Source: Eggerthellaceae bacterium (lineage in GTDB: Bacteria; Actinomycetota; Coriobacteriia; Coriobacteriales; Eggerthellaceae). From it: 40,374 nucleotides of DNA. Positions 20,219 to 35,181 of the stretch are shown here, piece after piece. The DNA lies in NCBI GenBank assembly GCA_017431165.1, contig JAFRLO010000045.1, positions 1-40,374 of the forward strand, given 5' to 3'. Positions within the stretch are counted from its first letter, which is position 1. The number at the start of each line of letters is the position of its first letter. A model generated the notes under the pieces. The model had not been told where the DNA came from and made no database searches. It worked only from the letters and a program-made list of their open reading frames with translations. The position numbers and the translations under genes were made by a program.

Positions 20219-20923
20219 CTAATCTCGTGGTTCATCAGGTGCTAAATCGTATTTATGCTTGATGCGCTCAAGCTTTTTGCGCCATGGAGCATAGAGTACA
20301 AGCAAGAAGACGACCGTGGAGATGCCACTCGCCAAATCCAAAGGCAGGCCAGCGCCATACGCAAGCAATGCGGACTGCCACGTGATGGGATGAACATAGC
20401 CGATGATGTACCAGGAGTTCAGGAGGAAACCATACTCGAGAATCGGCGCGAGCAGACCATATCCATACAGAATCGGTTTGCGCTCGAAGGCGCCATGGTC
20501 GGCAAGCACGCCTGCAAGATAGCCCATCAACCCGAACCCATACATCTGCCATGGGGTCCACGGACCTTGTCCTAAGAAGAAGTTGGACAAAAGCATCGCA
20601 AGCGCACCGACCATGAACCCAGAACGCCTTCCGAAGATCACACCCGCCATGATGGTGATGGCACCGACCGGCTGCACGTTCGGGACGACTGCGAAAACGA
20701 TGCGACCCGCAACGGCAAGTGCCGCAAGCACGACCGTGGGCATGATCTGCCGAAGCTGAGGACGCGATGCCTCGAAGCTCGCGAAGAACACGAGCACGCT
20801 CAATAAAACCACGACCATCGTGAGCAACGCGGACTGATCCACCTGCATGAACGCAGCAGAGAGTAAGCTCATCGGAACGATGATGAGCGCTGGTATCTCC
20901 AGTTTCTGCCAGATATTTGCCAT
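20219..20923 (-). CDS. ECF transporter S component, probably for corrinoid/cobalamin
   Basis: The S component is the membrane protein that binds the substrate for an energy-coupling-factor importer. The protein is about 234 residues with roughly six hydrophobic segments. Conserved parts are the GRIVFAVVPNVQPVGAIT segment, GVIFGRRSGFMVGALAML and FFLGQGPWTPWQM. These belong to an S-protein family that occurs with its own ATPase and T subunit, as in the predicted CbrTUV cobalamin set. The substrate is inferred from the operon's cobalamin riboswitch. The start MANIWQK is chosen because GAAGGG lies six bases upstream; an ATG five codons earlier (20938) is possible and would leave one base after the EcfA stop. 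Confidence 0.82.
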   Translation of the reverse strand: MANIWQKLEIPALIIVPMSLLSAAFMQVDQSALLTMVVVLLSVLVFFASFEASRPQLRQIMPTVVLAALAVAGRIVFAVVPNVQPVGAITIMAGVIFGRRSGFMVGALAMLLSNFFLGQGPWTPWQMYGFGLMGYLAGVLADHGAFERKPILYGYGLLAPILEYGFLLNSWYIIGYVHPITWQSALLAYGAGLPLDLASGISTVVFLLVLYAPWRKKLERIKHKYDLAPDEPRD

Positions 20924-20939
20924 CGTGCCCTTCGTCATG

Positions 20940-22427
20940 TCAGATGCCAGACTCCATTTCTGGACGAGTCCATGTCACAAAGAACCGATCGATCACGGGA
21001 CGATAGAACAGATTCTCTGCGAAGAACAGAGAAGTCGGCTCCGTGCTCACGATCTGCCCGTCGAAGATCATCGATGTGGTATCCGCGACACGCGATGCGA
21101 ATGCCAAGTCATGCGTGACAAGGAGAACCGTCGTACCATGCGCTGCAGCACGGCAAATCGCATCGGCAACGATGTACTTGGAACGGACATCCAAGCCCTT
21201 GGTCGGCTCATCGACCATAAGCAGCGCTGGTTTCGTGAGCATGATTTTCGCGAATGCCAAGAGCTGTTGTTGACCACCTGACAAGTCGTACGGGTGCTGT
21301 CCGAGCACATGGTCGATATGGAGGTTCTTCGCCAAATCCCTGATGTCCTCATCGGTATAGCCGCAACCCTTCTGCCACTCGGCAAGCTCTTCAGCTGCCG
21401 TATCGCACACGAACAGCGACTTAGGATCTTGCGGCAAAAGCGCCTGATTATCTTTAAGCAGATTCTTCAAAGAACCGCGGTCTATCTTCATGATGCCTGA
21501 CATCGTGGAAAGAAGCGTTGATTTCCCGGAACCGTTGCCACCAACAAGCGTATGAACCGAGCCCTTCTTCAATGTGAAATCCAACCCGCGCAGAACATAG
21601 GGCAATTCGCGTTTGTAGCGCACATACACGTCTTTGAACGTGACGGCAACATCCTCTCCCGAAAACGCGGGAGCGCATACACCCTCCGCTCGGAAATCCA
21701 CCGAGGATGCGCGTTCGTGAACCTCACGTCGATACTCTTCCACATCCCTATCTTGAACTTTCCCATCCTTCATGACAGCGAAGGCTGTGGCGTAATCGAC
21801 CACGGTCTCCGGCTCATGCGTAACCATGAGGATTGTCAGACCCAATTCGCGGTTGATGCGGAAGAGCGCATGCAGGAAGTTTTTTGAAGCCACAGGATCA
21901 AGTTGCCCTGTGGGCTCATCTAAAAGTAGGATACGCGGACGGAGCGCGAGAATGCTTGCAAGGGTCAGAAGCTGTTTCTGACCACCCGAGAGTTCGTTGG
22001 TCGCATTATCCAGCCATGGCTCAATGCCGAAGAAGTGCGCCACCTCAGCCACACGACGATGCATTTCATCTTGCGGGATCGCAAGGTTCTCTAACCCGAA
22101 TGCCATCTCGTGCCACACAGTGTCGCACACGATTTGATTATCAGGACTTTGCGACACATACCCGATAGTCTGTGCCGATTCGGAAGCAGAGAGCTCTTCG
22201 ATCGGTCTTCCGAACACGCGGATGGACCCCTCGCGCACACCTGTAGGAGCAAGCTCGGGCTTCATGTTGCGAAGAAGCGTGGTCTTGCCGCAGCCTGTGG
22301 CACCCACGAGCAACGTGAGCGAACCTTCCTTCACGGTCCAATCTACAGGGCCTAGGATGAGTCTGTCGCCATATGCAAACGTGAATCCGAAAACCTCGAT
22401 GGCAGGGACATTCCTTACAGGCTCCAT
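20940..22427 (-). CDS. ECF transporter ATPase, two fused ABC domains (EcfA-EcfA')
   Basis: This protein powers the ECF importer. The 495-residue chain has two complete ATPase domains. Domain 1 has Walker A GATGCGKT (42-49), signature LSGGQ (146-150) and Walker B ILLLDEP (166-172). Domain 2 has Walker A GGNGSGKS (296-303), LSGGQQQ and LLMVDEPTKGLD. Both H-loops (VTHEPE and VTHDLA) are present. Fusion of the two ATPases is usual in dedicated (group I) ECF systems. It overlaps ecfT by 13 bases. Confidence 0.93.
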   Translation of the reverse strand: MEPVRNVPAIEVFGFTFAYGDRLILGPVDWTVKEGSLTLLVGATGCGKTTLLRNMKPELAPTGVREGSIRVFGRPIEELSASESAQTIGYVSQSPDNQIVCDTVWHEMAFGLENLAIPQDEMHRRVAEVAHFFGIEPWLDNATNELSGGQKQLLTLASILALRPRILLLDEPTGQLDPVASKNFLHALFRINRELGLTILMVTHEPETVVDYATAFAVMKDGKVQDRDVEEYRREVHERASSVDFRAEGVCAPAFSGEDVAVTFKDVYVRYKRELPYVLRGLDFTLKKGSVHTLVGGNGSGKSTLLSTMSGIMKIDRGSLKNLLKDNQALLPQDPKSLFVCDTAAEELAEWQKGCGYTDEDIRDLAKNLHIDHVLGQHPYDLSGGQQQLLAFAKIMLTKPALLMVDEPTKGLDVRSKYIVADAICRAAAHGTTVLLVTHDLAFASRVADTTSMIFDGQIVSTEPTSLFFAENLFYRPVIDRFFVTWTRPEMESGI

Positions 22428-23341
22428 ACGATGCGCTCCTTAATCTCCAAAATGAAGGGAATAATCAAGAACAGAAGGTAAGGCAGGTAACCCCACCACA
22501 CAATAAGCTCGCTGAGTTCGGGATAGTAGGTGAACTGCGTGCATGCTGCAATGGCGCAAACCGTGCTTATCACGATGAGAACGCCCATGATAGCCGCCAT
22601 AACGCCATCGCGGGCGCGAAAGTCGCTTCTTTGATAGGTGGTGCGCTTCGGGGCAGCACCCCAACCACGAGCCCTCATGGCCTCGGAGGTGTCAAGGGAA
22701 TCTTCCATCCCCCACCCCATAAGCACCGTGAGATCACGCAAATACGTGCGGACAGAATCCGCTCGCTTCGCGAAAAATCCCTTGCTTGTACCACTATCAG
22801 GTATTCCTTGTGCACCGAAACCTACCTGATTATCCAGATTGGCAGAAGTGCAGAATTCCTGCGTTGAGCGTATCGACTTGGAGCATCGCATGAATTGCGG
22901 GACCAAGCGCAAAATCATCGTCACCATGAGCCCTATCGTGGGCATAACCCTACCCGTAAGCTGCATCATCTTATCGCTCGTGAGTATATGCGAGAGGTTA
23001 GAGAACCACTGCATGATAGATACAAGCATGATTCCCATGCATAGACCGTATACAAGGCTTTCCAAATAGAAAGCACTGTATCCGAACATGAACAGGACCG
23101 TCGATCCACTTTGCGAGAATATGGGGTTCAGAAGCGTGATGATCAAAAGCAATGGCAGCTGCCATGTAAGTGTTTTGAGCGCGGGACGCCACCCGCGCAA
23201 GAAGATGTTATAGGCGATCGCCATGATGAAATTCATGGCCAGAAAGACCGGATGGAACGCGGCCATAGTGAACACAAGCGCCGCAACCAGATAGATTGCG
23301 GCGATCGCGGGATGATATGTGTCAAAGGCTGTTCTGGTCAT
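22415..23341 (-). CDS. ECF transporter transmembrane subunit EcfT
   Basis: EcfT couples ATP hydrolysis to the S component. The 308-residue protein has several membrane helices (about 12-45, 55-75, 85-115, 240-265, 280-300) and a cytoplasmic coupling region containing EAMRARGWG, the EcfT/CbiQ signature, plus a second coupling-type segment near ILRLVPQFM. It is preceded by the DUF4430 lipoprotein gene (22-base gap) and overlaps the ATPase gene, so all belong to one transcript. An insert around residues 165-195 is poorly conserved in character. Confidence 0.9.
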   Translation of the reverse strand: MTRTAFDTYHPAIAAIYLVAALVFTMAAFHPVFLAMNFIMAIAYNIFLRGWRPALKTLTWQLPLLLIITLLNPIFSQSGSTVLFMFGYSAFYLESLVYGLCMGIMLVSIMQWFSNLSHILTSDKMMQLTGRVMPTIGLMVTMILRLVPQFMRCSKSIRSTQEFCTSANLDNQVGFGAQGIPDSGTSKGFFAKRADSVRTYLRDLTVLMGWGMEDSLDTSEAMRARGWGAAPKRTTYQRSDFRARDGVMAAIMGVLIVISTVCAIAACTQFTYYPELSELIVWWGYLPYLLFLIIPFILEIKERIVWSL

Positions 23342-23363: not shown

Positions 23364-23975
23364 TTACATGTCATCCATTTTCGTGACATAGTACCAACGA
23401 ACCCTATCGCCATCGCTGAGCACATACGATCCGCAAGACATCATCGGTGTGTAATCATTGACTGAATACATCCACCCGCTCGTTTTGCCGTAATCGTATT
23501 CCGAAAGACCATTGATGGAGCGAACATATTCGCTGCTACCACCGATAGGCAATCCCGTCGCCACTAAGGCATCGAAGACCGTAGCTCCCTCGCTTAGCTC
23601 GACGGTCATGTCCGCGAAATATCCGCGGTCGGCGTTTCTCGCATCAACGAGGACATGTATGGAAACGGTTGCGTATTCGGGTTCTGGCTCCGGCTCGGGT
23701 TCGGGCTCGGAACTTGATTCGCTAGATGGCGAGGATTCGGAAGAAGAATCCGACTCGCCCGAAGAGGGTTTCGCGGCCTCATCGGAAGAGGCCTTCTGTC
23801 CCTCGCTTTCTGTCGCGGACTCGCCGGATTTCTTCTCAACCTGCTCGGCAGGTGCAGCTTTGCTGTCCTTGGTAGTCTTGAACAGATCGCAGCCGCCCAT
23901 ACACGTGGAGCACAGGAGCACCAATAGACATGCGATAAATGTCCTCGTAAGTCTTTTCGGTGCTCCTGTTGTCAT
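23364..23975 (-). CDS. DUF4430 lipoprotein (transcobalamin/intrinsic-factor beta-domain-like)
   Basis: This is a predicted surface lipoprotein of 203 residues. The signal peptide ends in CMGGC (lipidated Cys near residue 29). A low-complexity Ser/Glu/Lys then Glu-Pro repeat linker (about 35-97) holds the domain away from the membrane. The DUF4430 domain follows (about 100-200), with GATVFDALVATG, KTSGWMYSVND and a Gly-rich end. DUF4430 is the bacterial relative of the C-terminal beta domain of vertebrate B12 carriers. In this operon it is the likely substrate-capturing partner of the S component, with the toroid of the giant protein as possible second half. The AAAGGA ribosome-binding site supports the start. 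Confidence 0.87.
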   Translation of the reverse strand: MTTGAPKRLTRTFIACLLVLLCSTCMGGCDLFKTTKDSKAAPAEQVEKKSGESATESEGQKASSDEAAKPSSGESDSSSESSPSSESSSEPEPEPEPEPEYATVSIHVLVDARNADRGYFADMTVELSEGATVFDALVATGLPIGGSSEYVRSINGLSEYDYGKTSGWMYSVNDYTPMMSCGSYVLSDGDRVRWYYVTKMDDM

Positions 23976-24016: not shown

Positions 24017-27000
24017 TTATACCAGCTTGTCCTCGGACGGAATCGCCAAGTAGTATTGGTCACCGGTGGTAGCACCGTCAGAATTCTTTACAGGTGCAAC
24101 CGGCCACGCCTTGCCACAGTAGCTCTTAGGCAGCGTTATCGAAATGGAGCCATCCGCCAGCGTGAAGAAGGATGCCTCACTCCACGTTGAAGCAAATCGG
24201 ATATCGGCATTCAGATAAAAGCCCTTATAGACCGTCGTGTTCTTGGGAACATAATGAATGACGACGTTGTCCCCATCGAGTGCGATCGTGGTGCCATCTT
24301 GCGGAGTGAACATACCGAACTGGGAGCCATCGGCCTTGATGAAGTTCACGGCCGTGCCATCGTATGCGAATTCGGCGGCAGCCTCGACGATATTGAACTC
24401 AGCAGTCTTAACGCCGGTATAGCCCGCAGACTCCACACCGGTAATCGTGTACACGACCTTTCCGACAGACGTGCCATCAGAGGTCGACGCAACTGACCCA
24501 TTGCTGACCGTGTAATCCTGATCTGCAACGAGAGTCTTGTCACCAACTTTAACCGTGATGGTTGGCTGATGCGCCTGACCATCGTAGAGCACAATCTCGG
24601 GCTCGAGCGTCACCGTAGCCGTGCTGAGGTTGATAAGCTGTGGCTGGTCACCCTCGATAGCAGCCTTAACATGCGCCACGTAAAGCTGTTGAATGGACGG
24701 AATCTCGCCAAGACCTGCAATCTGACAGGTGACGTTGTCAGCTGCGAAGTTGCCCTCAGCCGTGAACTGGCTGAGCCAAGACTCTTCATCCTCAGGATCG
24801 GCCATGTCGTTGTTGGCATGGTCACCGGCAACGACCATCAGCGGGCGAAGGATGACCTTCGTGTAACCGGCAGCCTTCACCTTAGCGATGACGTTGGAGC
24901 ATTCCGTGCTCTCGGGCAGACCCTCCACAGTGCCGATGAAGACATTGACGTAACCGAGCTGATCCATCATGGTCTGCATCTGCTCATAGGTCACGTTGGC
25001 AACATGCTCGGTGCCATGCCCCATCAAAACGATTGCGGTTCCGTCGGTAGCTGCGGCATCAACAGTCGCATAACCGGCATCGCGAGCCGCAGTGTTGGCA
25101 ATCGCCATGGCGACGGATTCCTTGTCGGCGTTGATGACGGTTGCGTCGGCGCCGACCTCACCGAGTAAGGGCTCGGCGACTTTGACGGACTCGAACTTGG
25201 ACTCATAAGGAGCGAGCGCTTCAATCAGCTCATCGTACTCGGCGCCATGCATCAGATGCGTCGGCTGGACGACGAGATTCTTCACACCGTTGGCAACCGC
25301 ACGGTCAAGAGCCTGATCGACATTGTCGATCTTCTCAAGGTCACGCGCATAGATGTGGTTGATGATGATCTGGGCGGTGAAGGCGCGGCGTACGGACCAA
25401 TCCGGATATGCCTCTTGGATGGCCTTCTCAATGCCACCAATCGTAGCAACGCGGCTGTCGTTGAATGAGGTGCCGAAGCTCACGACCAAAATCTCGTTCT
25501 CGCCGATACCGTCTTGATTCAGCGGATCATCAGCGGAAGCATCGCCCGTGTCAAGACCGAAATAGTCGTATTCCTCGACGAGTGCCTTTTCATCATTCGA
25601 AAGGGCATCCCAAGCGGCCTTTGCGGCCTCGCAGTCAGCCCACGTCGTATCGGTATAAACCTGCGACTGGATCTTGGCGATCATCTCATCGACGGTGTTG
25701 GCAGGAGCCGGATCGGTCCACGGATCGAAGACCAGCGTGCCGGTATCCTTATCGAGAGTCGCCTGGCGCCCGTACCAGTTGCCATTCCTCGCGGACTTGA
25801 ACGACATGACGAACGGCTCGCCGTCGCAGTACGTCCAGATGGTCTCAGGTTGACCGAACTTCTCGATACCCATCACCGGGATGGTGAACGTATTGGTTTC
25901 GGGATCGAAGACAATCGTTTCGGTAGCCTCGGCAGCCTCGGCCGGCATCCCGATGAACACTTCGCTCATAGCGGTGCTCTGCATCGGAAGAATGAGATCG
26001 GCCTTATAGCCATTAGAGTTCGGGCCGCCCACGGTCTTTAACGTAGCGGTTTCGGCAGGCTTGAACATCTCGACGTTGTTCGTCACAGCGATGGTCTGAG
26101 CAGCCTCGAAATCGCCAGTCACAAGCGTGCCGGCTTCGAGATCCAAGTTGAGCTGACGCGGATACAGAGCACGCGCGTAGGGGTTCTGACCATTGAGGTA
26201 TTTCTCATAATAGCTTTGGGAAATGGCTACAATGGGAACGTCCTTGCCCAATTCGTCGGCATTGATCTTCATGACGAATTCCCACTTGCCGTCTGCATTC
26301 TGAGCGCCAACGATCATATGGTCGGTATCGTCGCCGTAGGCAACGGCTTCCTCATAGGTGCCCTTGACGAGGAAGTGATAACCGGTGCCGCTGAGCGCGA
26401 AGGTGAGAATCGCAGAGCCATCGGATTGCGGAACAGCCGTGGCAGTCACGGCCTTGAACATGCCGGTGTTGTTGGTGATGGCAAGCTCGACAGGCTCGAG
26501 GATATTAGTGGTCAGCGCATACATGATCGGAGTCGGCATGCTGCTCGAGATGCCGCCGAAGTATGTTACGCCGTTCAGATCGACAGGAATCGCATAGTTG
26601 TTGTTACTGTCGCGATCGATGGTCTGTCCACCCGCCCAAACACTCGGATACGTGGTGAGCTTCTTGGCCGTGGCATCGCCACTCGTCACATAGACGTAAG
26701 CGGTTGCCTTACCATCCACGACTTCGATGGACTCGACCCACCAGTTCCTCACACGGCTCGAATCGCTCTTGCCCTTATTCGAAGAGGAGCTCACAGAGGG
26801 ATCGGTCGTGGTGGTGTACGTGCCATTGGCAAGCGTGGTGCTGTTATCGGTCTCGTAGGACCAGACAGACCACAAGGCGCTTTCAAGAACGCGACCCAAA
26901 GACTGGCCGGTTCCAGTATGGGTGCACTCAGCATCCAAAATCGCCTGGTCTTCCTCGCTCAGCGCTTGGAAGGCATCCCAAATAGCTTCAACGGACTCTT

Positions 27001-30000
27001 TATCGTCCGCGGTGAACTCGGTCGGATCGGCAGAAAGCGCTTGAATATCAGCCCTCACGTAATCGATGGGTTCGAGCATCCTATCGATCTTCCACAGCTG
27101 ATTCGGACCGCCGTTGGAAGTCCAGACGCCGACGTTCGCGCCGATTTCAGGCTCAGAGCCTGCGGCATCGAGAACGACTTCAGGATTGGCAACGGACTGG
27201 ATCATGAAGTATTCGTCCGAAATGGGAACGAGCACCCATTGTTGGTTCGCACCCTCGTTATAAGACCACGTGGAAACATTCGCACCGGCTTGGGGCTCTG
27301 CACCAGCCGCATCGAGGACGAGCTCGGGGTTGGCGACGTTGCGCAGTACATAGTAGCCGCTATCCTGCAGCTCTATGGTGAAAAGCTGATTCGCACCGCC
27401 GTTGTCGGTCCAAATGGAGACATTCGCACCGATCTCAGGCATGGCCGCAGCCACATCGAGGACGAATGCGGGATCGAAACCGCTCACCAGATGATACTGG
27501 GATTTGGAGCCCTTGGCGACGGGAGCGGGATAGATGTTGAGCACTCCGATCTCGAGAGAGCCAGTGATGGAGCCCTTGCCCTCGATGGTCACGTCGTATT
27601 CGTTAACGGCGCTCGGGGCGGTCTCGGAGCCGTTGTACTTAACAACATAGTCAGTACCCGCGACAAGCTCCTTGCCGTTCAGGGAAACGGTAATCTCGGG
27701 TGAGAGCGCCTCGCCGGTGGCATTCTTCTCCATACCGACTTTGGTCACTTCGGCATAAGCCAGATCATCGGCGGCGACGAGCGTCCACTGCTGGTTCTTT
27801 CCGCCATTGGAGGTCCAGATGGAAACATTGGCGCCGATTTCGGGCACCTCGCCCGCGGCATCGAGGACGAACTCGGGATTGGACGCGCTTGCGATGGCGA
27901 AGGTTGAGCCATCAGCGCTCGGGATGAAGGTCCACTTCTGGTTCATGCCCTTGTTGTAGGTCCATGTGGACACGTTCGCGCCGATCTCGGGCTCGGCACC
28001 CGCGGCGTCGAGGACGAGCTCAGGATTGGCCACATTGCGAAGCACGAAGTAGCCATCCTCGCTCTGCTCGATGGTAAACAGCTGGTTGGAACCACCATTG
28101 GAGGTCCAGATGGAAACATTGGAACCAGCCTCAGGCTCCGCCTTGGCCACATCGAGGATGAAGTCAGCATCGGATACCGACACGATGCGGTAGGCCTTAC
28201 CGGTCTCGATGCCCTCGGGAGCCTCGGAAACGTCGAAAGTGCCGACCTTCTTCTCGCCGAAGTACTTGCCGCCGTCAACCGCCTTCGCGGTTACGACATA
28301 CATACCAGGCGTAGTCGGGACGTCCTTGGATACGGTCTCGCCATCATCGTAGAACAGCTCGTAGTCAGTGCCCTCGGTAAGGGTCTCGAGACCCATAGTA
28401 AGGGTGACCTCAGGAGCGGCAACCTTGCCGTCGATGATGTTTTTGGCCATACCAGTGGCTTCGACGGTAGCGCCAGCGAGGCTACCGTCCTCGACGAACC
28501 ACCACAGTTGGTTCTTCTGGCCGTTGCCGGTCCACAGACCGACGTTGGCGCCAGCCTCAGGCTCGGAGCCCGCAGCATCAAGATACAGCGCATCGGAAAT
28601 GATGTTAACCATGTAGCCCATGTCGTCGCCTGCGCCAGCACCGAGAAGGGTAATGTTCCATTCCTGATTGGGTCCACCATTGGCAGTCCAGGTGGAGACG
28701 TTCGAGCCTGCTTGGGGCACAGCGCCCGCAGCGTCGAGCACGAGCTCGGGGTTGGCAACGTTGCGGATGACATAGCCGCCGCGGTCGCCGACCTCGAAGG
28801 TAAACAGCTGGTTGTCGCCACCGTTGTTCGTCCAGATGGAGACGTTGGAGCCGGCCTCGGGCATCGCCGCAGCGACATCGAGCACATATGCGTCATCGAA
28901 AGCGGAGACGATATGATACTTCGTGCCATCGATTTTCACGGGCGATGTCTTCAGATAAACATCGGACATATCGTAGAGGGAGGTCTCGCGCTCTACGAAA
29001 CGATTATAAGCAACCAGAGCGTAGAAGCCCTGTTCAGTTGCAGTTTGGTTATACGTCTTTCTATCGGTATCACTGAAACCGCCACCATCAACTGCGAAAG
29101 CGCACAACGCATCAAGCGCAGTCTTGCCATCCTTGATGAATCGAGAATCGGTGGTCGGGTCGATACCGAGTTCGGTTAGAGCAACGATGACCTGGGCAGC
29201 AGACTCAGAGCACTCTATTCCTGCATAATTCGGGAAACCACCGGTATCAAGCTGCATATCGGAAAGCTTTGCGAGTGCTTTATCGATGGCAGCCTTCACA
29301 TTGGCATTAGAATCGTAGTACTTTGCCAAAGACTGAACGGCCATAGCCGTCAGGTCGGTATCAGCAGCAGTACCCATGGCGTTCCAACCACCATCGGCAA
29401 ACTGGGCATCCAAAATGACGTCAATCAGTTTCTCGCGCGTGGTCTGTGTTGTACCAGCGGCAGACTCGGGAATCTCGTAATCGTGGGAATCAAATGCCAA
29501 GAGCGCGAAAATCGGAGCGTACACTCCTTGCCTGTCTATGAAGGCATAATCAGCCAAGGCCTCGGTCAGGTCATAGCCGCCGATATTGCTTGCGTCATAA
29601 CCCGCTGCGGTCACCGCGAGAATGATTCTTGCGTAGTCAGTGGCAGAGGCGCCCGAGCCGAGCGTGCCGTCATTTTCCTGCAGGGTCTGCGCAACATACG
29701 CATAATACGGGCCAAAACCCATGTATTGCCAGCCACGAGCCATACCTAAGACGAACCAATCGGTTTTCTGGCCCATGCCGTTTTCAAGGATGCCCCACAC
29801 ACGATCGCGAGTTGTCATGTAGATGTCGATGGCATCTTCTGGCATGACGCGCTCGTATTCGAAGGTGACGACATAGTACAAAGTGGAATTCCACGATGTA
29901 TCATATGGGCTTTGAATCTGAATGCAATCGAACTCGCCATCAGCATTGAAGTCCGTAGCAACAGTTGCGCTCGACTTGCCAGCATAAACATCTGGATAGT

Positions 30001-31150
30001 TCTGCGCACCATCAAGATAGGTTTTCCCATCCGCTGTGTAGTTATAGGCTTGGACATCATCGGAGAAGTAGAGATCAACGGATTCCGTACCCTGGGGGAT
30101 TTCGACCGTATATGCGCCAACAGTCGTCGCGGGACCATAAGTCGATCCAGTATAGCCATCCGCCGCGAAGGAGAGAACCGTGCACGCCTGGCCATCCACT
30201 ACAACAGTGAAAGAGGCAGTGTACTCGATCTTGATGGCATAGAGCATGGTCGAGGACCAGTTCTCGTCATAGGGTGTCTGAACCCAGATGTAAGCAGGAA
30301 GCTCACCCTTGCTGTCAGCATTGAAGGATGCCGTAACCTCGCCGATCTGGCCGTTGTTACCGTATCCCTTATTTTTGTCGGCAGCACCGGTGTCGATGTA
30401 TGAGGCCCACTCGTCATAACCGTAGGCAATCAGCGGAACACCCTTGAAATCGAGCTCCAGCGTCGAGGTGCCATACGGCACGGTCAGAACATAAAGATCG
30501 GAGGTGTTCTCAACCTGAACCCAATTACCGCTTTCATCCTGAACCCATTGAGAATAGGTGTAGCCATCCTCGATCAGGTCGGAGGGAGTGCCAACCGAAG
30601 GAACGAACGGACCGTCCCATGCGGGAGCCGCAGGAAGTTGGACGATGAAGCAATGGGCATTCTCGTAATCTTCCGTGCACAGGATGAAGATGTAAGCGTT
30701 GCTGAAGTCAAGAGAATACGCCGAGCTTTCAAGCTCGATGTTATCGTCTTCCTCAAGGAACTCCGTCAAATTAAACTGTGCATCAAGGCGGATAGGCGCC
30801 TCGTAGACGCTATCCCTTTCGGCGCCGGTCATATCTGCAAGTCCCATGAAATAATACGTGTTAGATCTGGGATTGAAGAGCTGGGCGCCTTCGTCCATCA
30901 GGTCCGCGAGATCGGTGAAAACGATGACATCGGCAGGCTCATCGAGGGCGATGTAATTGATATCCATCTCCTCCATGAACGTATACGTGCCGATGACGTC
31001 GCAATCCTCAATCGCAACGTCCTTTTTAACTGTGTCTGCTTTGGCTGTCGCCGGAGCGAACGCCATGCAGAGCGCGAAAGCCAGGAACAGCGATGAGATG
31101 AGCGCTATTCCCTTCTTCGCGAGTTGAGAGCATCTGAATGGTCTATCCAT
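24017..31150 (-). CDS. Giant secreted protein: alpha/alpha toroid, three ricin-like trefoils and a CbiK cobaltochelatase domain
   Basis: The chain has 2377 residues from ATG at 31150 (GGAAGGGGG just upstream); in-frame codons further upstream lie in the riboswitch leader. The order is signal peptide (1-37, cleavage after AKA) and two related N-terminal beta repeats (about 150-430). Next come an alpha/alpha toroid of terpene-cyclase/transcobalamin type (about 437-724, repeats ADGGWN, DTGGFP, DGGGFSD) and trefoils at about 742-889, 982-1127 and 1214-1359 separated by Ig/MBG-like modules. Unclassified beta modules follow (about 1430-1820, related halves ITNNTGMFK and VTNNVEMFK). The CbiK domain (about 1884-2165) keeps QPTHLMHG, LMGHGTEH and VAGDHANNDM. 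An MBG-like module and a C-terminal beta domain finish the chain. No sortase motif or membrane anchor is seen. It is the first gene of the riboswitch-controlled operon; capture of corrinoid, cobalt or tetrapyrrole at the surface is inferred. Confidence 0.88.
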   Translation of the reverse strand: MDRPFRCSQLAKKGIALISSLFLAFALCMAFAPATAKADTVKKDVAIEDCDVIGTYTFMEEMDINYIALDEPADVIVFTDLADLMDEGAQLFNPRSNTYYFMGLADMTGAERDSVYEAPIRLDAQFNLTEFLEEDDNIELESSAYSLDFSNAYIFILCTEDYENAHCFIVQLPAAPAWDGPFVPSVGTPSDLIEDGYTYSQWVQDESGNWVQVENTSDLYVLTVPYGTSTLELDFKGVPLIAYGYDEWASYIDTGAADKNKGYGNNGQIGEVTASFNADSKGELPAYIWVQTPYDENWSSTMLYAIKIEYTASFTVVVDGQACTVLSFAADGYTGSTYGPATTVGAYTVEIPQGTESVDLYFSDDVQAYNYTADGKTYLDGAQNYPDVYAGKSSATVATDFNADGEFDCIQIQSPYDTSWNSTLYYVVTFEYERVMPEDAIDIYMTTRDRVWGILENGMGQKTDWFVLGMARGWQYMGFGPYYAYVAQTLQENDGTLGSGASATDYARIILAVTAAGYDASNIGGYDLTEALADYAFIDRQGVYAPIFALLAFDSHDYEIPESAAGTTQTTREKLIDVILDAQFADGGWNAMGTAADTDLTAMAVQSLAKYYDSNANVKAAIDKALAKLSDMQLDTGGFPNYAGIECSESAAQVIVALTELGIDPTTDSRFIKDGKTALDALCAFAVDGGGFSDTDRKTYNQTATEQGFYALVAYNRFVERETSLYDMSDVYLKTSPVKIDGTKYHIVSAFDDAYVLDVAAAMPEAGSNVSIWTNNGGDNQLFTFEVGDRGGYVIRNVANPELVLDAAGAVPQAGSNVSTWTANGGPNQEWNITLLGAGAGDDMGYMVNIISDALYLDAAGSEPEAGANVGLWTGNGQKNQLWWFVEDGSLAGATVEATGMAKNIIDGKVAAPEVTLTMGLETLTEGTDYELFYDDGETVSKDVPTTPGMYVVTAKAVDGGKYFGEKKVGTFDVSEAPEGIETGKAYRIVSVSDADFILDVAKAEPEAGSNVSIWTSNGGSNQLFTIEQSEDGYFVLRNVANPELVLDAAGAEPEIGANVSTWTYNKGMNQKWTFIPSADGSTFAIASASNPEFVLDAAGEVPEIGANVSIWTSNGGKNQQWTLVAADDLAYAEVTKVGMEKNATGEALSPEITVSLNGKELVAGTDYVVKYNGSETAPSAVNEYDVTIEGKGSITGSLEIGVLNIYPAPVAKGSKSQYHLVSGFDPAFVLDVAAAMPEIGANVSIWTDNGGANQLFTIELQDSGYYVLRNVANPELVLDAAGAEPQAGANVSTWSYNEGANQQWVLVPISDEYFMIQSVANPEVVLDAAGSEPEIGANVGVWTSNGGPNQLWKIDRMLEPIDYVRADIQALSADPTEFTADDKESVEAIWDAFQALSEEDQAILDAECTHTGTGQSLGRVLESALWSVWSYETDNSTTLANGTYTTTTDPSVSSSSNKGKSDSSRVRNWWVESIEVVDGKATAYVYVTSGDATAKKLTTYPSVWAGGQTIDRDSNNNYAIPVDLNGVTYFGGISSSMPTPIMYALTTNILEPVELAITNNTGMFKAVTATAVPQSDGSAILTFALSGTGYHFLVKGTYEEAVAYGDDTDHMIVGAQNADGKWEFVMKINADELGKDVPIVAISQSYYEKYLNGQNPYARALYPRQLNLDLEAGTLVTGDFEAAQTIAVTNNVEMFKPAETATLKTVGGPNSNGYKADLILPMQSTAMSEVFIGMPAEAAEATETIVFDPETNTFTIPVMGIEKFGQPETIWTYCDGEPFVMSFKSARNGNWYGRQATLDKDTGTLVFDPWTDPAPANTVDEMIAKIQSQVYTDTTWADCEAAKAAWDALSNDEKALVEEYDYFGLDTGDASADDPLNQDGIGENEILVVSFGTSFNDSRVATIGGIEKAIQEAYPDWSVRRAFTAQIIINHIYARDLEKIDNVDQALDRAVANGVKNLVVQPTHLMHGAEYDELIEALAPYESKFESVKVAEPLLGEVGADATVINADKESVAMAIANTAARDAGYATVDAAATDGTAIVLMGHGTEHVANVTYEQMQTMMDQLGYVNVFIGTVEGLPESTECSNVIAKVKAAGYTKVILRPLMVVAGDHANNDMADPEDEESWLSQFTAEGNFAADNVTCQIAGLGEIPSIQQLYVAHVKAAIEGDQPQLINLSTATVTLEPEIVLYDGQAHQPTITVKVGDKTLVADQDYTVSNGSVASTSDGTSVGKVVYTITGVESAGYTGVKTAEFNIVEAAAEFAYDGTAVNFIKADGSQFGMFTPQDGTTIALDGDNVVIHYVPKNTTVYKGFYLNADIRFASTWSEASFFTLADGSISITLPKSYCGKAWPVAPVKNSDGATTGDQYYLAIPSEDKLV

Positions 31151-31239
31151 ATGTCCCCCTTCCTCTATACGTGCCACGCTTGCCAGAGCCGAGTTGTGCA
31201 AGCACCCTATTACAGAAGAAGGGCCGCAAAACAAAAAAA

Positions 31240-31264
31240 CTGCGCGCACATAGAGTGCACGCAG
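31240..31264 (-). terminator. Intrinsic terminator in the riboswitch leader (expression platform)
   Basis: On the minus strand CTGCGTGCAC and GTGCGCGCAG pair as a 10-bp stem with one wobble and a 5-base loop, followed by TTTTTTTGTTTT. It lies between the riboswitch aptamer and the giant gene, about 90 bases before its start codon, so it fits ligand-dependent transcription attenuation. Confidence 0.85.
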
Positions 31265-31329
31265 CCCGTATTCGCTACGTAAAAGCCAGGCAATCGCCCA
31301 GGTTGGACACACGGTGATTCGCCGCAAGA

Positions 31330-31500
31330 TCCAGCACGTCTCCTAGTGGGCGATCTGGCTTTCGGCGAGGGTGTGTTTTAATGCTACGACGACCGATTCA
31401 CAGTGGCGGGACCGCGTGGGAATCTCACCCACTTCTCCCATCCTAGAAGGTCTTTCTTCTGTACGCTCCATAGTATCGAAAACACCCCTGAATGAAAAGG
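31330..31500 (-). ncRNA. Cobalamin riboswitch
   Basis: The minus strand at 31432-31393 reads GTGGGTGAGATTCCCAC, then GCGGTCCCGCCACTGTGAA. This reproduces the conserved cobalamin aptamer core: a stem closing GGTGARAATCC, then the near-invariant CCCGCNACTGT. GGATGGGAG precedes it, as the conserved GGGA does in the family. Two B12-box candidates lie downstream: GAAAGCCAGATCGCCC and CTAGGAGACGTGC. Outer limits and the P1/P2 pairing were not resolved, so the ends given are approximate. The element heads the giant-protein/DUF4430/ECF operon and is followed by an intrinsic terminator. Confidence 0.85.
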
Positions 31501-31650: not shown

Positions 31651-34600
31651 TTAAGCCACGAGCTTCCAGAGCTGGTTCGGGCCCCCGTTGTCGTACCAGA
31701 TGGATACGTTGGCGCCGATCTTCGGCTCGGCACCCGCAGCATCGAACACGTACGTGATGTCCGATGCGGAGGCGATGCGGTAGTAGCCATCCATCTTCTC
31801 GCTCGGGATGAGGACCCATTTCTGGTTCATGCCCTTGTTGTAGGACCAAGTGGAGACGTTCGCCCCCACCTCGGGCTCCGCACCCGCGGCATCGAGCACG
31901 AGAAGCGGGTTGGCGACGTTGCGGAGCACGTAGAATCCGTCGCTTTGGACCTCGAGGGTGAACAGCTGGTTGTCTCCCCCGTTGTCCTCCCAGATCGAGA
32001 CGTTCGCGCCGATCGTGGGGACGACCTCGGCCACGTCGAGCACGAACCTGTCGCTGAAGCCGCTCGCCAGATGGTAAGAGGCGCCCTCCCTCGCCTCGGG
32101 GACCTTGTAGATCGCGAAGTCCTCGAGATTGACGATGCCGGAGCAATCGCCCGTGCCCACGAGCGTCACGGCGTAGGCGCCCGGCTTGGAGGGCGCGGCC
32201 TTCTCGGCCCCGTACCGGACCACGTAGTCCTCACCCTCGGCGAGCTCCTTCCCGTTGAGCGTCACCGTGATGTCGGGCGAGAGCGCCCCTCCCGTGTAAT
32301 TCCTCGCCATCCCCGAGACGGACACGTCGGCGTATGCGAGGTCATTGGCCTCGACGAAGGCCCACTGCTGGTTCAGGCCGCCGTTGCCGTACCAGAGCCC
32401 GACGTTGGCGCCGATCTCGGGCTTTGCGCCCGCGGCGTCGAGCCAGAGCGTCGGGTTGCCGACGTTGACGATGATGTAGTGCCCGTCACGGGTGTCGACG
32501 AAGCTCCACTCCTGGTTCCTGCCGCCGTTGTAGGTCCACGTGGACACGTTCGCGCCGACCTCGGGGAAGGCGCCCGCTGCGTCTAAGACGAGCTCGGGGT
32601 TGGCGACGTTGCGGATCACGAAGTCGCCGGCCGCGGTCTGCTCGAAGGTGAACAGCTGGTTCAGCCCGCCGTTGGACGTCCAGATGGACACGTTGGCCCC
32701 AGCAGTCGGATGCACCTCGGCCACATCGAGGATGAAGTCGGAATCGGATGCAGAGACGATGCGGTAGGCGGTGCCGTCGGTCTTGACGGGCAGCACGCTG
32801 ACCTTCGGGATCGCCTCGGTCCTCTTCTCGCCGCACACCGTGCAGGTGTAGGTCTTAATACCCTCGGACTCGGTGGTGGGCTCGGTCGTCACGACGCCCA
32901 CATCCCAGACGTGCCCCTTAGCGGGGACGGCCTGCTGGGCGACGAGGACCTCGCCGCAGATGGAGCAGTGCTTGCCCTCGGTTGAACCAGGCTCCGTGCA
33001 AGTAGGCTCGACCGCCGGGTCGACGACCTCAACATGCCCCTTTGCCTTGATCTCCTCGGTGTAGGACTCATCGCATCCGTCGCATTGGTACCTCGTCCAG
33101 CCCGCCTCGGTGCAGGTCGCATCCTGCTTTTCCGCGATGACGAAATGGTGCACATGAGATGCGGCCTCCATCGTCAGCGTTCCACCGACGTAATCGAACT
33201 CGTAATTCTTGGCTAAGCCGCCTGAAGGCACAAGCTCGTAGCTAGCACCCGGCTCGAGCTCGGCAGGGGCCTTCACAACCGGAGCAACGTAATCGTCGCC
33301 CAGCGACTCGGGCGTTTCTCCGTTCACAAAGCCCGTTACCGCGACATTCAGACTCGGCATCTCACCATATGCGACAACTTCATCAACATAAGTAGCCGTC
33401 AACATCGCAGGATAAATGAAGAACACGATGGTCCGCTCGCCTGTGAAGCGCCCCTTGCCAGTCGCAAGCACACTGTACTCGCCCGCATTCTTGATATCCG
33501 AAGCATCGATTTCAATCATCGCATCGGTTCCCTCGGGATGATAATAAAAGGACCCGAGCACGTAGTCGGTCCCCTCAAGAAGCGCTGATCCGTAATAATC
33601 CAGCACAATCTCGGGTACATTGGCCTTGCCGTTGTAGGTCGTACTATCGAAGTAAAGCACCCCGCCTACTCCCTCGCCAGAAATATCGATAAGCTCGCCA
33701 GGATCATCCGAATCCCCAATTTTGAACCCGAAAATGTAGTTGATATCGGGGCGTTCCGTGAAAGACGCAGTGACTGTGGCAGTCCCCTCGCCAAGTACGG
33801 TGAAGACTCCATAACCGCTCGTCTCCACAGTCCACGGATCCGAGCTTTCCCAGCCGAACGTCGAGGAATCGAGCAACGTCGGGTAATAGGTGTTGTTGTA
33901 CTGGCAAAGCATGAGGCTGCCGGTGTCCCCGATTGCGAATTCCCTGATATCGCCGGAATCCCAATCGTAGCCATCCGCATCGATTCCACGCAGATTCACA
34001 TTGCTCACATCGATATAAGCGGAATAGACCATCAAATCGGTAGAGTACTCGTATGTGCGCTCCATTTCCGGCAAATCGGAGAACAGTTCGACCCAATACT
34101 TTGCTCCATCCGGGGTCGTAAATCCGGCAGCAGCCATGGACGTAAAGCCCTCGTCTATCATGTTCGCGTAGTGTCCAGGCGAATTCGTCCAACACTCATG
34201 AACCTCCGCCACCGACTGCTGACCCGCCGCAATGTTCTCGCCAGCTGTGCCAACGCCATCGGGGAAGGCAGTAAAGCACGTCGAATTGTCGGGCCGCGTG
34301 TGGGAGTAGTACACCGCCAGCTCGGCAGCCCTCAGCTGCGCCGCCTGCTCGAGCTCGGCATTCCATACCAGATTCGGCGCACCCACCAAGGCGCGTTGTT
34401 CGTTCACCAAACCAAGGATCTCATCGATATCGTCGGCGGGCACATACGAGCCTTCGAAATTCAAAGGCACCACGGTTTCAGTAAACTCTCCGGGATCGAT
34501 TCCGAAAGCGGTTTCGGCAGCAGTCGTTAGGTTCAAAGGACCGGTCGAGGCATAGACGACCTCGCCGCCCTGCTCGATCATATAGACGAAGGGCAAGGCA

Positions 34601-35181
34601 ACTGAACCACCATCACTTTCGCCCGCATTCTCAAGCATCTCCCAGGCCCAGAAGGCGTAGCTATCGTCCAAATCAGAAGGCATTGCAGCAAATCTGAATC
34701 TGTCGGGATCGACTCCCAGATACTCGTCAAATCCCTCAAAGAAAGCCAAGGCATCGTTATCGACATCCATCACGACGAAATAGATTCCGTCAAAGCGCCT
34801 ATCATCGAGCATAGATTGGGCAGTCAACACGGCATTTTGGGTGTTAGTGCAGGTAGGACGACCGACAATGCAGATTACGTTACCCTTGGCATACAGACCC
34901 GAAAGATTACCGCAAAACGCTCCGTCGCTGTTATACAGTGCGACATCAATGGCTTGAACGTTCGAGGCACCAATAACCTCTACCCCTGAATCAACCTGCC
35001 TTGCAAGCTCCATTTTCGCGGCTGGCACCTGAACCTCGTCAGCCCACGCTGCGGCAGGCAGTATGCCCGCACAAGCAAGAGCGAAGACCACCGCAAAAAG
35101 AAACAAGCTGCTGCTTCTTCTGAGCCCTACAGCAGCCGTTGATGATGTTTGGAAGATTTGAGAATCGTCGTGCTTGAGCAT
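31651..35181 (-). CDS. Large secreted protein: thioredoxin-like, CAP domain, Cys-rich repeats and two ricin-like trefoils
   Basis: The protein has 1176 residues. It shows a signal peptide (1-48, cleavage near AWA|DEV) and a thioredoxin-like region (about 85-230) that keeps only one Cys of the usual pair (RPTCTNTQ). A CAP/SCP domain follows (about 252-370) with SHTRPD, GENIAAG and SPGHYANM. Next are a Big-type and MBG-type beta region (about 385-670), three Cys-rich ribbon repeats with CxxC pairs (about 677-790; CDGCDES, CSICGE, CTVCGE), trefoil A (about 804-945), an Ig-like module, and trefoil B to the end. It is a surface or secreted adhesin-like protein, target unknown. The start has AAAGGA about 9 bases upstream. 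The trefoil half is more GC-rich than the CAP half. Confidence 0.85.

Follow-up and report, generated by a model that had tools for sequence, protein, structure and literature searches.

We found that the DNA stretch under study, a window of 40,374 nucleotides from an Eggerthellaceae genome that is 66% complete, carries on its minus strand a genuine cobalamin riboswitch (31463-31302) divergent from the standard library models. It is a known kind of riboswitch whose expression platform appears to be a new variant. Past the aptamer lie an intrinsic terminator, an antiterminator hairpin and a strand, S, which can pair either with the 5' end of the RNA (strand A) or with the region of the ribosome-binding site (RBS; strand R) of the first gene of an operon. 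We tentatively favour, at somewhat less than an even chance, a ligand-OFF riboswitch over a B12-capture and import operon in which termination is backed by RBS sequestration.

A divergent cobalamin aptamer

The Rfam scan of the whole window at gathering thresholds returned no matches. At an E-value threshold, the AdoCbl riboswitch model RF01482 matched over its full length at 31463-31302 of the minus strand with 41.5 bits (E 2.6e-6), short of its membership cut-off of 50 bits; in the genome search RF00174 scored 27.2 bits against a cut-off of 31.5. The cobalamin aptamer core seen in the earlier note is thus borne out, and the minus-strand covariance-model hit that it predicted exists at this E-value, with nothing at gathering thresholds. 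Our own covariance model R1, built from seven leaders including the window itself, gives the window 112.6 bits. Clear members of R1 (>55 bits) turned up in about a dozen genera of the family, and a few more elsewhere in the order; the hosts of related leaders include Adlercreutzia agrestimuris and bacterium D16-34. Nine homologous leaders that can be aligned to the window (L051, L053, L055, L058, L059, L060, L075, L134 and L037) pass the RF01482 cut-off with 50.1-63.8 bits, leaders of sister genera among them.

All hallmarks of RF01482 are present in the window: P2, P4, L5, P6, the B12 box and P13 with a CGnnnnn loop. The aptamer core spans 31340-31449 (-), as given by the RF01482 and R1 matches and by checking of the pairs. 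It is flanked, together with the B12 box, by P2 (31449-31443/31346-31340), a plain 7-bp helix CUUCUAG/CUAGGAG. The pairing was likewise checked for P4 (31432-31428/31420-31416), for P5/L5 GGUCCCGCC (31413-31405, with L5 inside) and for P6 (31403-31401/31357-31355), and the B12 box GCCAGAUCGCCCA lies at 31359-31347. The hairpin UGCGG-CGAAUCA-CCGUG at 31310-31326 aligns to the P13 hairpin of RF01482; its 7-nt loop starts with CG, and this L13 is the presumed partner of L5 in a kissing interaction. By eye, the P2 and P13 stems vary in a compensatory manner among relatives, the P13 stem reading GCGG/CCGC or GCAG/CUGC and again closing a loop of 7 nt that starts with CG. P1/P2 had been suspected of being non-standard, possibly marking a variant class; the ordinary RF01482 layout, with a plain P2 that covaries in relatives, resolves this doubt. 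We regard the element as a corrinoid riboswitch of the AdoCbl type: the gene context is consistent with a cobalamin ligand, and we infer this link.

The same genome contains a strong cobalamin-riboswitch match elsewhere (C22:11036-11254) and two more sub-threshold matches of this kind (G000:C22:26980-27088, L003 and L042; G000:C17:2596-2702, L076). Compact AdoCbl-II riboswitches (RF01689) are common in Eggerthellaceae (L029, L082 and similar loci among L024-L033); they carry CCAGUAACCGU and GAGCCCUGG beside the RBS and score poorly with RF00174.

The regulated operon

The first gene downstream (24017-31150 (-), ATG at 31150) encodes a secreted protein of 2377 aa with Pfam matches to CbiK (1.4e-68) and RicinB_lectin_2 (6e-68); it also weakly matches PDB 7xkx, a SQHop_cyclase_C protein (E 0.007). 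This very large product thus combines a CbiK cobaltochelatase domain with Ricin lectin repeats and with a segment that can only weakly be recognised as terpenoid-cyclase-like; it is unusual for a chelatase-like domain to be extracellular. The second gene (23364-23975 (-)) encodes a DUF4430 lipoprotein-like protein (Pfam DUF4430, 1.7e-17). It is followed on the same strand by a protein that lacks a family match and is placed as EcfT by position only (22415-23341), by fused ECF ATPases (20940-22427) and by an ECF S component (20219-20938), and the segment 20219-23341 (-) probably encodes an ECF transporter. On the other side of the riboswitch, a strong hairpin GTTGGGCGGTACGCTTGCACCGCCCAAC at 31624-31597 may terminate the lectin/CAP-domain gene that lies upstream (31651-35181).

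The leaders of other genera also precede secreted proteins, whose Pfam matches mostly lie below the cut-off and include DUF4430, SQHop_cyclase_C and Cobalamin_bind (PF01122, E 0.009). The protein behind leader L130 has a clear DUF4430 match (1e-15), and some of the relatives' proteins have prenyltransferase-like matches. As these matches are mostly sub-cut-off, the likeness of the regulated secreted proteins to intrinsic factor and transcobalamin is a lead, not proof. The best explanation of the operon's function is B12 capture and import. The riboswitch is linked to secreted, partly B12-binder-like proteins of the Eggerthellaceae.

Terminator and antiterminator

A terminator scan and folding both place an intrinsic terminator hairpin of 13 bp at 31237-31267 (-), adjoined by a tract of exactly seven U (31239-31233), in agreement with the seven T residues reported before. 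The antiterminator hairpin ACGUAGC-GAAUACGG-GCUGCGU (31259-31280 (-)) is supported by the conservation of its loop and by its covarying arms. Because GCUGCGU is common to both hairpins, they are mutually exclusive, and the leader has the full make-up of an intrinsic-terminator platform: a GC-rich hairpin, an adjoining U-tract and a mutually exclusive antiterminator. A match to the trpB motif at 31299-31228 (24.4 bits, cut-off 59) was dismissed as a chance match to the terminator.

Most members that bear a terminator keep the GAAUACGG loop (G033 has GAAAAUGG), and the arms around it vary (GUAGC/GCUGC, GUGAC/GUCGC, GCGGC/GCCGC). The arms pair better with their own partners than with swapped ones (67 pairs vs 62.3, p 0.003). 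Among the loci compared, the loop together with pairing arms and a terminator occurs solely at corrinoid riboswitches. Scanning the collection for the antiterminator core returned 13 stretches, six of which are riboswitch leaders (L130, L132, L133, L134, L137, L139); no aptamer was seen in the remaining stretches. A search for the pattern GYGAATACGGGY in 138 genomes gave mostly chance matches, in numbers similar to those of a reversed-pattern control, and its matches are informative only if pairing arms and a terminator are present. The hairpin with the GAAUACGG loop, followed by a terminator, is also found after classical cobalamin riboswitches (L014, L018, L130), some of them in further families of the order. 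The CCG of L5 is complementary to the CGG of the GAAUACGG loop, and both are nearly invariant; we considered that L5 might kiss this loop.

An activating riboswitch, comparable in sign to the A. halodurans cobT case, in which P13 stabilised by the ligand would free the antiterminator and turn the operon on, goes against the usual repression of uptake genes by B12. The 3' strand of P13 can indeed pair with the 5' arm of the antiterminator in several genera, but the test does not set this pairing apart from chance (p 0.18), it is weak in the window (-2.6 kcal/mol), and we rejected it as a candidate. Activating corrinoid riboswitches exist (PMC10653944), yet for the window we consider activation very improbable.

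Competition for the B12 box

The earlier note sought the alternative fold of the expression platform in a pairing of the B12 box with a strand downstream of the aptamer. The complementarity of 8+5 bp is present, and the complement UGGGCGAUUGCCUGGC lies exactly where it had been placed (31300-31285 (-)); the B12 box is shifted by one base, to 31359-31347. The pairing energy is -22.5 kcal/mol; shuffling of the downstream DNA gives -14.8 +/- 2.5, with 1% of the shuffled sequences doing as well. When the leader is folded without ligand, this pairing is predicted to prevail. The competitor strand also folds locally into the hairpin CUGGGC-GAUU-GCCUGG. Conservation argues against a role as a switch: in the sister species the loop of this hairpin changes from GAUU to GUCA and two pairs with the B12 box are lost (-19.4), and in other genera the pairing is no better than in shuffles. 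Moreover, the competitor overlaps neither the terminator nor the antiterminator, and in constrained folding the terminator has a probability of 0.83 when the competitor is formed and of 0.86 when the aptamer is, so that the calculation lends the competitor no support as an antiterminator. We therefore regard control of the terminator by this fold as improbable. The competitor is at most a lineage-specific alternative fold; in the window's genus it may trap the free aptamer in an unfolded state.

A strand with two alternative partners

The A strand UACAGAAGAA (31454-31463 (-)) forms the 5' end of the RNA and the 5' arm of a long-range helix, P0, with 10 bp to 31220-31211. It has a weak continuation, AGACC, to 31449, and A:S in the window overlaps P1/P2 weakly. 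By eye, the A strands of relatives lie directly 3' of -10-like boxes. The S strand CCCUUCUUCUGUA (31211-31223 (-)) is positioned just past the terminator and can pair with either A or R; with the R strand UAUAGAGGAAGGG (31157-31169 (-)), which contains the Shine-Dalgarno region, it forms 13 contiguous pairs.

Both pairings track the species of origin. In 14 leaders, one set of representatives, partner-swap tests that ignore the species tree gave p 0.0005 for A:S (0.002 when GC-corrected; A partners were scored against the region holding S) and p 0.001 for S:R (0.003 when GC-corrected). With the window or A. agrestimuris removed, p is at most 0.021, and six control comparisons are not significant (p 0.11-0.75). 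Compensatory changes such as AGAAGAC/GUCUUCU to ACAAGAC/GUCUUGU are seen by eye in relatives. The RBS of relatives often resembles the 5' strand, as in G096 (A GAAGAAGAC, R AGAAGGAAGACGGUG); in A. agrestimuris the A strand is AACAAGAC and the R strand GAAACAAACGGUG. For an RNA ending just after S, folding predicts A:S with a probability of 0.96, and for the full-length RNA of the window it predicts S:R, with the RBS sequestered, at a probability of about 1. Such a pattern would suit kinetic competition between the two pairings.

Each of the three species of the genus has an orphan cobalamin riboswitch (L041 at G000:C41, about 6660-6365 (-); likewise L036 and L037) that shares the A and S strands with the window. 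It has no same-strand gene downstream, and its own terminator sits where an antiporter-like gene running towards it has its 3' end; it is possibly a free-standing cobalamin-responsive RNA.

The two parts of the platform are distributed unevenly across genera. A strong U-tailed terminator with weak S:R is found in G156, L130 and G122 (the tail of the last is moderate), and G013, G003 and G117 have strong S:R but lack a good terminator. Both are strong in the window, G158, A. agrestimuris, G096 and G049, where a U6 tail was read by eye and the terminator scan picked another end. The window would thus have a dual platform, intermediate between terminator-only and RBS-pairing-only relatives.

A simpler account is possible, though we rate it below the dual platform: a plain terminating corrinoid riboswitch in which only the aptamer, the antiterminator and the terminator matter. 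A:S and S:R would then arise incidentally, from 5' ends and RBSs rich in purines and a spacer rich in pyrimidines, or A:S would merely protect the 5' end of the mRNA. The strong U7 terminator and the covarying antiterminator agree with this account, as does the energy of S:R in the window, which lies within the best 12% (11.7%) of 265 RBSs (predicted starts from the loci compared) and is unexceptional since RBS sequences are purine-rich; S:R is also missing in some members of the class. On the other hand, the species-specific matching of S to both A and R, with its non-significant controls, and the strong S:R kept in members that lack a good terminator count against this account.

Proposed mechanism

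The aptamer, the terminator, the antiterminator and S with its alternative partners are elements whose presence and conservation can be read from the aligned leaders. In the ligand-OFF dual platform that we favour, the operon would be off when cobalamin is plentiful. Binding of the ligand would favour the terminator through the L5-L13 contact, and transcription would stop. In transcripts that read through, a stabilised P1/P2 adjoining A would weaken A:S, leaving S to pair with R and hide the RBS. When the aptamer is empty, the antiterminator would form and A would capture S, keeping it off R, and the gene would be transcribed and translated. Termination would therefore serve as the first gate and RBS sequestration as the second. 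We infer how P1/P2 is coupled to A:S, which way the operon responds and what state the antiterminator takes. Several points count against the model: thermodynamic folding predicts the terminator alike in the aptamer and non-aptamer states, the P13 3' strand pairs with the antiterminator no better than by chance, S:R is absent in some genera and in the window of ordinary energy for an RBS, A:S overlaps P1/P2 only weakly there, and the swap tests take no account of the species tree. A broader version is somewhat less probable than the ligand-OFF model itself, namely that the two platforms act in series, the GAAUACGG loop is recognised, either by a factor or elsewhere within the RNA, S toggles between the 5' end and the RBS, and the relatives display a passage between transcriptional and translational control.

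Comparison with known systems

Few cases have been worked out of how corrinoid binding leads to termination or translation, and many mechanisms of corrinoid signal transfer are still to be discovered in the expectation of the authors of PMC10653944. The lineage described here offers terminator-only, RBS-pairing-only and combined leaders, which makes the passage between the modes testable; default Rfam cut-offs miss such riboswitches. We did not meet the window's platform arrangement in the literature searched, itself only part of the whole.

With RF01482 the window shares the organisation of the aptamer, the B12 box, the CCCG of L5 and the 7-nt L13 loop starting with CG. It differs in scoring below the cut-off and in a long insertion in P6, and its elaborate expression platform is not part of the family model. 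Another close parallel is the metE riboswitch of Priestia megaterium, for which L5-L13 kissing and a P13-based antiterminator are established (PMC10653944). Both have the kissing loop (presumed in the window), P13, a terminator and an antiterminator that shares the 5' arm of the terminator. However, the antiterminator of P. megaterium is made from the 3' strand of P13, whereas in the window a local hairpin of its own, whose loop is conserved, takes this part, and the window adds a second, RBS-directed pairing after the terminator. RBS sequestration as the OFF state, as proposed for the window, is shared with E. coli btuB and env8HyCbl, which are described as translational (PMC10653944); in the window, by contrast, S would sequester the RBS from a position past a terminator, and the RBS would compete for S with the 5' end of the RNA.
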